From assembly GCA_023539395.1 (NCBI GenBank), contig JAKCEX010000008.1, positions 1 to 40,915 on the forward strand: DNA of 40,915 bases, in the 5' to 3' direction. This stretch comes from Candidatus Geocrenenecus arthurdayi. Lineage in GTDB: Archaea > Thermoproteota > Nitrososphaeria_A > Caldarchaeales > Wolframiiraptoraceae. This document shows, piece after piece, positions 38,587-40,915 of this stretch. A program made the translations under genes and the position numbers. How positions within the stretch are numbered: the stretch's first letter is position 1; each line of letters starts with the position of its first letter. The notes under the pieces were generated by a model. That model did not search any database, was not told the DNA's origin, and saw only the letters and a list, made by a program, of their open reading frames with translations.

Positions 38587-40044
38587 GTGGTTAAGGTTTT
38601 AGAAGATACAGGGTTATCTTTCGATGATGTTCTCCTAATACCCAGAAAATCATCTATAGCTTCTAGAAGGGAGATCGATACAAGGTCTAGGTTTACTCAA
38701 AGAATTATGATAAATATTCCTATTGTATCTGCAGCAATGGATACTGTTACAGAGTCTGCTATGGCTATAACTCTTGCAAGAGAAGGTGGAATAGGAGTTA
38801 TACATCGTTTCATCCCTCCTGAGAGGCAAGCAGAAGAAGTAGCTAAAGTAAAGAGAGCAGATAATGTAATCATTGAGAAGCCTATAACCATAGCCCCAGA
38901 TAGAACAATTGGAGAAGCAAGAGAACTTATGAGAACCCTCGGGATAAGCGGGTTGCTAGTTGTAGATCCTGAAAATAGGCTTCTAGGGATCCTTACAAGA
39001 AGAGATGTATTATTCGAAGCCGACTCTACACCTGTAAGTAGATGTATGACCCCTAGAGAAAGAATGATTGTTGCTGAATCAAACATATCTTTAGAGGAAG
39101 CTAAGAATATCTTCAAACAATATAAAGTTGAGAAGATACCTATAGTTGACCGAGAGAACAGAGTTAGAGGATTAATAACATGCGTCGACCTATTAAAGAG
39201 AGAAGCCTACCCTAATGCTTCCAGGGATTCTAAGGGTAGATTACTTGTCGCAGCCGCAATAGGCGTAAAAGAGAAAGAAATAGACCGTGCAAAGCTTCTG
39301 GTAGAGGCTGGAGCTGATGCAATAGTGATAGATGTTGCACATGGGCATACAAGCATGTGTATTGAGACTATAAAGAAGCTTAGAAGAATCTATGGAGATA
39401 ATGTAGAGATAGTTGCAGGCAATGTTGCTACAGCTGAAGGTGTTGAAGATCTTGCCTCAGCAGGAGCAAACGCTGTAAAAGTAGGCGTAGGACCGGGCTC
39501 CGTATGTACAACGAGGATAGTTGCAGGTGTAGGTGTACCACAATTATCTGCTATTCTTGAATGTGCTAATGCAGCTGAGAAGATGGATGTACCAATTATA
39601 GCTGATGGAGGTATACGTGAAAGCGGAGATATAGTTAAAGCATTAGCTGCAGGAGCTTCCTCCGTCATGATAGGTAGGTTGCTAGCTGGAACAGATGAGA
39701 GCCCTGGAGCAGTAGTAGTTAAGAATGGTAGAAGATACAAAATCTATAGAGGTATGGCTTCAATATATGCTATGCTAGGTAGAGAGGCTAGGTCTAGGGA
39801 AGATCCTACAGAAGCATTGATAGATGCTTCTGAATATTCATACTATGCTGAAGGTGTCGAAGCATACATACCATACACTGGCTCAGCTTCAGAGATGATA
39901 AAGAAGCTAGTTGCAGGATTAAGATCTGGAATGAGCTACCTAGGTGCGAGAACTATACCTGAACTAAAACATAACTCTATATTCATTAGAGTTACACAAG
40001 CAGGAATAAGAGAAAGCATGCCTCATGATGTTGAAGTAATCTAG
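38587..40044 (+). CDS. guaB: inosine-5'-monophosphate dehydrogenase
   Basis: '[14 protein letters not shown]', CBS pair, '[24 protein letters not shown]', '[30 protein letters not shown]'; GTG start. Confidence 0.97.
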
Positions 40045-40133
40045 TGTAGCATCTCAGGAGTACCACCCTACTCTATCCTCGGAAACATAAACAAACCATC
40101 CTAAAAATAATGAAGTAAATAAAATAATTTAGG

Positions 40134-40256
40134 GAGAGTGGCTGGCCGATGAGTTATAGTAGTTGCTCGGCTAGCGGGAGATCTAGATTTCACCACTCTC
40201 TGGAGTATTACTTCAAACCCTACTAGCCTCACAACTTTTACTGCTCATCGGCCAGC
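40134..40256. repeat. inverted-repeat/hairpin module at the 3' end of the transposase gene
   Basis: 13-bp perfect IR GCTGGCCGATGAG (40141-40153) / CTCATCGGCCAGC (40244-40256); 8-bp IR GAGAGTGG (40134-40141) / CCACTCTC (40193-40200); GCTGGCCGA (40141-40149) / TCGGCTAGC (40167-40175) 9 bp with one G.U. Confidence 0.8.
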
Positions 40257-40910
40257 AGGGTCGTTGATTGTCTGGTCGTCTGCTATAAAATATGCTTTCC
40301 TAAACATCTTCAGTATCCTTGACTGTATCTTGTATATTGCTTTCATTTGTGGTAGAGAATAGACGATCCCTCTGAATTCTTCTGGGACCTCCCATTTATC
40401 TCTCCATCGTTTTGCATTAATGTAAATGTTTATAGCTAGCTGAGATAGATGATTGCGGATATGGTAGTTGTATCTTCCATTGTTACGGTTTGGCGTTAAT
40501 CCTACGAACTTCTTAAGAATATTCAATGGTAGATGTAATGGTAGTTTTATCGTTAATATAGCGACTTCAACACTATCATTGAATCCAAGTAGTCTACAAG
40601 CCTCCTTATAAATAGTGTTATCAGAAAGCATCTCAATAATCTTCTCTGCGAGCTTCTTTTTATCCTCCTCCATTAGTCTTATGTCGTCTCTCAGCCAGTC
40701 ATACCCATCATTCCTAACCCACTGCTTCAATGCCTTAATCCTCCTAGATAATAGCTCGTACTCGTTGATCAACGGTTGTACTTTTATCTTCTTTTCTATC
40801 TCTTCGATTGTTAAAGCCCTAAAACATTCTCTAGGAATCTTTGAAAGCATCAATGCATCAACTTCATCAGACTTCCTTACATTATTCTCTCTTCTAAGCT
40901 TCTTCAACAT
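40245..40910 (-). mobile_element. IS110-like transposase, partial (5' end outside the window)
   Basis: 'NVRKSDEVDALMLSKIP' resembles the end of the DEDD domain; 'LLGFNDSVEVAILTIKLP...KKFVGLTPNRNNGRYNYHIRNHLSQLAINIY' resembles the Tnp_IS110/IS116 C-terminal domain. Confidence 0.65.
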
Positions 40911-40915
40911 ACTTG

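Follow-up and report, generated by a model that had tools for sequence, protein, structure and literature searches.

A predicted guide RNA overlapping the end of a divergent IS110-like transposase gene in Candidatus Geocrenenecus arthurdayi

The minus-strand segment 40256-40141 of the window (the whole stretch of 40,915 nucleotides analyzed here, which makes up all of contig C30 in an archaeal assembly of 1.53 Mb) is very probably a guide RNA belonging to a mobile element with a divergent IS110-like DEDD transposase, and it would guide the insertion of that element. The initial annotation had proposed that the 3' end of the element holds a guide resembling a bridge RNA, and this proposal is now backed by covariation within the fold, by complementarity between guides and their own flanks in comparison with swapped pairs, and by target sites that are uninterrupted in related genomes. 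Where an element has interrupted host DNA, the target consists of two adjoining halves, one identical in sequence to the 3' guide and the other to the reverse complement of the 5' guide; the RNA could therefore pair with one strand in the first half and with the opposite strand in the second, on either side of a core of a few base pairs. As judged from the flanks of several copies, the element sits at such a guide-defined core, flanked by a direct repeat of 4 to 8 bp, and appears to have inserted in both orientations, with either target half adjoining its right end.

We hypothesize that the segment is co-transcribed with the terminal part of the transposase mRNA and then released, that the released RNA is bound by the transposase, and that the resulting complex finds its target through base pairing and inserts the element. 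Copies that consist of the RNA only might move in trans. The window copy would have targeted the stop codon of the IMP dehydrogenase (IMPDH) gene, in an IMPDH-purA pair that lies side by side in relatives.

The element in the window

In the window copy, the 5' part of the transposase gene lies beyond the contig end, and the open reading frame (ORF) stops at a TGA (40247-40245, minus strand) located inside GCTGGCCGATGAG (40256-40244). The parts are as follows.

40245 to 40913, minus strand: 3' part of the transposase gene, 222 codons plus stop (ORF list; homologues including a 304-aa full-length copy on C76)
40141 to 40256, minus strand: predicted guide RNA core (P1, P2, and guide loop), 116 nt (z of -7.0; covariation; covariance-model match of 92.6 bits)
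40244 to 40256, minus strand: P1 5' strand GCTGGCCGATGAG, which holds the transposase stop codon (complementarity and covariation)
40223 to 40237, minus strand: P2 5' strand (fold and covariation)
40202 to 40218, minus strand: putative 5' guide GTTTGAAGTAATACTCC, of which TTGAAGTAAT is complementary to the right flank
40193 to 40203, minus strand: P3, a small, weak terminal hairpin in the loop (fold)
40177 to 40192, minus strand: putative 3' guide TGAAATCTAGATCTCC, of which CTAGAT equals bases at the right junction
40161 to 40174, minus strand: P2 3' strand (fold and covariation)
40141 to 40153, minus strand: P1 3' strand CTCATCGGCCAGC (complementarity and covariation)
40045 to 40140, minus strand: right end of the element, from P1 to the junction; the initial ~20 nt (CACTCTCCCTAAATT..) recur in other copies
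40031 to 40044, minus strand: right junction and target site CTAGATTACTTCAA, at the IMPDH stop codon (10-nt complement to the 5' guide; IMPDH and purA adjacent in relatives)

The initial annotation had suggested a search for loops complementary to core sequences near 40100, and the 5' guide does pair with 10 nt at the junction: its TTGAAGTAAT is complementary to ATTACTTCAA at 40040-40031, at the IMPDH stop codon, and CTAGAT of the 3' guide equals six bases at the same junction. The left junction of this copy is off the contig. In most readable relatives, an apparent purA gene begins no more than a few bases after the IMPDH stop codon, and the window element therefore sits between two otherwise adjoining genes. 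Since the insertion splits IMPDH from the start of purA (window 40031-40140), it may affect the co-transcription of purine genes in this archaeon.

Fold of the RNA and its conservation

The 13-bp helix that the initial annotation had placed around the stop codon, with a perfect complement of GCTGGCCGATGAG 90 nt further on, was confirmed together with its position (complement at 40153-40141, 90 nt between the arms), and it covaries. The RNA as a whole (40256-40141, minus strand) folds at -56.9 kcal/mol, versus -29.6 ± 3.9 kcal/mol for dinucleotide shuffles (z = -7.0). Across copies, the architecture comprises a P1 helix of ~14 bp, whose 5' strand is the end of the transposase gene; a small internal loop between P1 and P2, in which GTAAA and TAC are near-invariant among the copies compared; a P2 helix of 15 to 18 bp; and then one large loop, which holds in order a 5' guide of ~14 nt, the small hairpin P3, and a 3' guide of ~13 nt. 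This is the only guide loop within the conserved segment.

Double compensatory changes were observed at 17 of the 25 scored pairs. Main-fold cells are paired in 95.3% of cases, compared with 87.5% in shuffles and 18 to 47% when the alignment was slid, and the covariation score (0.397, versus 0.242 shuffled) was reached by none of 500 shuffles. The stop codon and the C-terminal residues vary (PAGR, PLADE, LAGGQ, and PLAGG) while the RNA structure is constant; because the C-terminal reading frame drifts and the structure stays, selection acts on the nucleic acid. The aligned sequences thereby indicate one nested stem (P1 and P2) that is maintained by selection across relatives and presents a single large guide loop.

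An alternative reading with two mutually exclusive folds was rejected, as its second helix is not conserved and, when read on the RNA strand, includes an A.C mismatch. The helix given for it, TCGGCTAGC with one G.U pair, turned out to be a plus-strand reading, and on the RNA (minus) strand GCTAGCCGA meets TCGGCCAGC with that mismatch. Among 24 relatives, the alternative pairing is formed in 64% of cells versus 95% for the main fold, so two exclusive functional folds are unsupported. The companion pairing of GAGAGTGG (40134-40141) with CCACTCTC (40193-40200) held up as a perfect 8-bp complement in the window, but its loop half is missing in the other aligned copies. In the window copy, loop GAGAGTGG is complementary to CACTCTC, a sequence that several copies have just after P1; its loop half occurs only here.

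Guides match the flanks of their own copies

Guide sequences vary from copy to copy. Guides were hand-set with fixed loop boundaries in 28 copies and later cut automatically from the covariance-model alignment in 57 copies, and the reverse complement of each guide was sought, at a length of at least 10 nt, in the 300-nt right flank of its own copy, with swapped copy pairs as the control. With the hand-set boundaries, the 5' guide matched its own flank in 4 of 28 copies (versus 3 of 756 swapped pairs), and the 3' guide did so equally often (4 of 28, versus 1 of 756). The automatic cuts gave matches of at least 10 nt for the 5' guide in 11 of 57 copies, compared with 26 of 3,192 swapped pairs (0.8%), and for the 3' guide in 9 of 57, compared with 15 of 3,192 (0.5%), each with a permutation p of <0.0005. 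Same-sense guides produced no matches in the right flanks of these 57 copies. About two thirds of the copies have no match of at least 10 nt, and the matches of L069 and L082 fall in apparently intact tRNA genes. Two loci, L066:1915-2037 and L176:1459-1581, share a near-identical 5' guide (GCAGTGAGACACTAC) and have different 3' guides, as if the guide halves were exchangeable or drifted separately.

Several insertion sites could be read on both sides or compared with orthologous DNA; gene names at these sites are our reading of translated or RNA sequences. In L053, CTTAGCCGAG (the 3' guide) stands at the left edge and GCTTCTTTCT (the complement of the 5' guide) stands at the right edge, 1.6 kb apart, and the site is contiguous in the orthologous DNA of genomes G005, G012, and G014, with empty sites reading CTTAGCTGAGCTTCTTTCT in G014 and CCTAGCCGAGCTTCTTCCT in G012. 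L051 likewise has 12 nt of its 3' guide on the left and 10 nt of the 5' guide complement on the right, 1.2 kb apart. The right flank of C76a matches the complement of its 3' guide, and the empty site in G004 reads, uninterrupted, TATCTCGGTGGATTCACATAATG, versus the predicted TATCTTGGTAGATCACGTGAA. The right flank of L066 begins with ATTATCTGAG, at the start of a gene whose ortholog is uninterrupted in six genomes, and its left half, ATGGAAGCCGTCCTGAGACATTAT, was located by synteny 7.9 kb upstream on the same contig; when the two flanks are joined, the frame is restored and reads MEAVLRHYLRED. Joining the flanks of L177 restores the frame of ribosomal protein L11. Orthologous DNA also confirmed the right junctions of L178 (5' end of 5S rRNA), L065, and L180 (5' end of tRNA-Asp). 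It refuted a 9-nt match in L182 that had been a candidate junction. Left-flank searches gave no match for most reverse-sense copies, several of which lie on contigs ending inside repeats, and L059 has a left match without a convincing right one.

Targets are often at the edges of housekeeping genes (those for IMPDH, nob1, ribosomal protein L11, 5S rRNA, and tRNA-Asp). tRNA genes also adjoin many elements, as in the right flanks of L068, L079, L080, L082, L055, L069, L089, and L180. One locus, L198 (G016 C16, 109474-117343), is a 7.9-kb insertion between the two halves of a single target, with a guide RNA and a transposase fragment; it also holds apparent genes for a leuA-type synthase, a MacB-like ABC transporter, and a TrmB-like regulator, which are possibly cargo or nested insertions.

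Copies and distribution

Within the same genome, the 3' segment was also found at C53, C55, C65, C76 (twice), C49, C62, and C66, and several of these copies are without an intact transposase gene. The initial annotation had considered that other copies might end before this segment; they do not. A covariance model (R1), built from 24 copies and searched in 44 genomes of the order, detected the RNA in 6 of the 44, in two genera and in dozens of copies, and the fold is common to the copies in these six genomes. The loci examined have one RNA per element copy. About ten copies are open over their full length, many are decayed, and in some the RNA segment is present with little or no transposase. 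Transposase homologues in genomes of the same order include ~30 matches in G016 and nine in G001. A PHROGs search returned a weak transposase match, a PDB sequence search returned unrelated matches only, and the viral contigs searched returned none.

Elements from other genera and families of the order (L086, L087, L089, L068, and L069) have different inverted repeats after the gene, which model R1 missed; these repeats probably represent a broader set of related guide RNAs. Many G016 elements (L055, L061, L054, L057, and L058) share a module ~0.6 to 1.5 kb upstream of the transposase, which consists of a decayed opposite-strand ORF with the look of a CxxC...CxxC zinc ribbon and a short ORF just before the transposase.

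A hairpin that overlaps a stop codon, with a T-run 20 to 60 nt downstream in many copies, could also be a terminator, riboswitch, or attenuator of the transposase gene with no role as a guide. We regard this explanation as very unlikely: RNA copies without an intact gene exist, an Rfam search with the segment gave no match, and neither the covarying structure nor a variable loop matching the insertion site would be expected of such a regulator.

Orientation and ends of the element

The right flank is matched by the 5' guide in L053, L051, L065, L180, and the window, and by the 3' guide in C76a, L066, L177, and L178. In about half of the assigned copies, the top-strand match lies 5' of the bottom-strand match in the RNA, as in the IS1111 group, and the order is reversed in the rest. 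Direct repeats of 4 to 8 bp surround six elements (GAGCTT, ATAGGTTT, CATTAT, CCCTGAA, AATTA, and ATAT), of which CCCTGAA and AATTA are biased because they were found with a repeat criterion. No common end sequence was found among the five elements compared, and the distance from the RNA to the junction ranges from 58 to 366 nt across copies. IS1111 elements have subterminal inverted repeats of 7 to 17 bp. The initial annotation pointed to repeats of this type, and none were found here: terminal or subterminal inverted repeats in L053 amounted to 7-nt matches only, at unrelated positions.

These observations bear on whether the segment acts as DNA, that is, as a palindromic end-recognition site or a cruciform bound by the transposase, with incidental loop sequences. 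Such a site would account for the presence, close to the right end, of a long inverted repeat with perfectly matching arms, and the subterminal inverted repeats of IS1111-group elements offer a precedent. However, the left end of L053 has no partner repeat, the spacing between the palindrome and the right junction is not fixed but ranges from 58 to 366 bp, the pairs covary with G-U tolerated on one strand, and the loop holds a copy-specific match to the insertion site. A purely DNA-level role is therefore very unlikely, and we favor an RNA that guides insertion.

A divergent transposase

The description of the transposase as IS110-like stands in the sense of a remote relative: the IS110 family NF033542 of NCBIfam is the best family match of full-length relatives (E of about 4.5e-5; 22.7 bits versus a cut-off of 140), but the genome has no Transposase_20 (PF02371) match and the family has no serine at the SG position. 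PF01548 (DEDD_Tnp_IS110) reached a best E of 0.01, below the cut-off score. The N-terminal DEDD part is missing from the window copy; relatives contain the YVD and KSDE.D motifs, with D as the second acidic position. Alignment of the C-terminal domain with canonical archaeal IS110 proteins covers 132 columns (E of 0.0036; reported probability of only 9%) and places the SG loop in a gap. At the SG position, the family reads G-x-TP-x-K-N-x-G-R-Y, with a nearly invariant tyrosine, and no invariant or near-invariant serine was found in 20 relatives; the usual catalytic serine thus seems to have been lost from the family. Ser241 of IS621 is an essential residue and makes the covalent bond with DNA (PMC11208158). 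The predicted structure of the window protein has a pLDDT of 55 (two-row alignment), and no reading was drawn from this model.

Tentatively, the elements may represent a branch of RNA-guided DEDD transposases in archaea from which the serine nucleophile and the donor-binding RNA loop have disappeared, and which uses a different chemistry and inserts at a guide-chosen site; with these losses and this chemistry, insertion in either orientation would follow. The chemistry might then rely on the nearly invariant loop tyrosine, or on plain RuvC-type cutting in which a staggered break gives rise to short duplications of the target.

It is possible, though doubtful, that the elements are instead ordinary IS110/IS1111 members with one orientation and serine chemistry, and that the two orientations, the repeats, and the missing serine result from rearrangement, misassigned ends, and poor alignment. 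The IS110 model is after all the best family match, copies are often decayed, the alignment to canonical proteins is remote, and duplications claimed in the IS110 and IS1111 families proved to be bases of the elements themselves (PMC11187229). Each element of these families has been reported in only one orientation at its target, with a guide order that is fixed within IS1111 and reversed in IS110 (PMC11187229). Here, however, orientation does not track RNA lineage (9 of 26 nearest neighbors agree; p = 0.91), L066 shows, at a single locus, one insertion with a target half on each side of it, in the reverse sense, and the SG loop falls in a gap, with the loop tyrosine rather than any serine near-invariant in the 20 relatives.

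IS110-type elements underlie programmable bridge recombinases, whose current mechanism relies on a serine nucleophile. If the reading of a serine-free branch is true, a compact single-loop guide without the serine motif and with two-way insertion would mean that RNA-guided insertion can use other chemistry and other end recognition. The copies record many natural retargeting events and hence offer ready material for working out guide rules, in an archaeal lineage that has been poorly sampled and to which Candidatus Wolframiiraptor is related.

Comparison with known systems

The predicted RNA resembles TIGR-Tas and box C/D snoRNPs in that a two-guide RNA is combined with an IS110-related protein partner (PMC12045711); unlike TIGR-Tas, it forms no tandem array in the loci examined, where each copy of the mobile element has just one RNA unit. 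With the bridge RNA of the IS110-group element IS621, it shares an associated transposase gene of the DEDD superfamily and guides that lie in an internal RNA loop and overlap at the core (PMC11208160, PMC11208158). It differs from IS621 in its location at the right end rather than the left, in having one guide loop in the conserved segment instead of separate target and donor loops, and in the absence of a Ser241-type catalytic serine.

The closest parallel is in the IS1111 seekRNAs (those of ISEc11, ISKpn4, and ISPa11), which are located downstream of the transposase gene, are single-lobed and ~80 to 150 nt long, and have one segment per target strand (PMC11187229). The RNA described here shares the downstream location, the single lobe, and the two-strand guide logic. 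In contrast to the seekRNA elements, both orientations occur, no subterminal inverted repeats or SG/TG motif were found, the 5' strand of the RNA overlaps the coding end, and the junctions have repeats of 4 to 8 bp. Because a serine motif, a single orientation, and subterminal repeats were sought and not found, we withhold assignment to IS110 or IS1111. On sequence evidence, it nevertheless appears to be a genuine guide RNA, one that would work like an IS1111 seekRNA.
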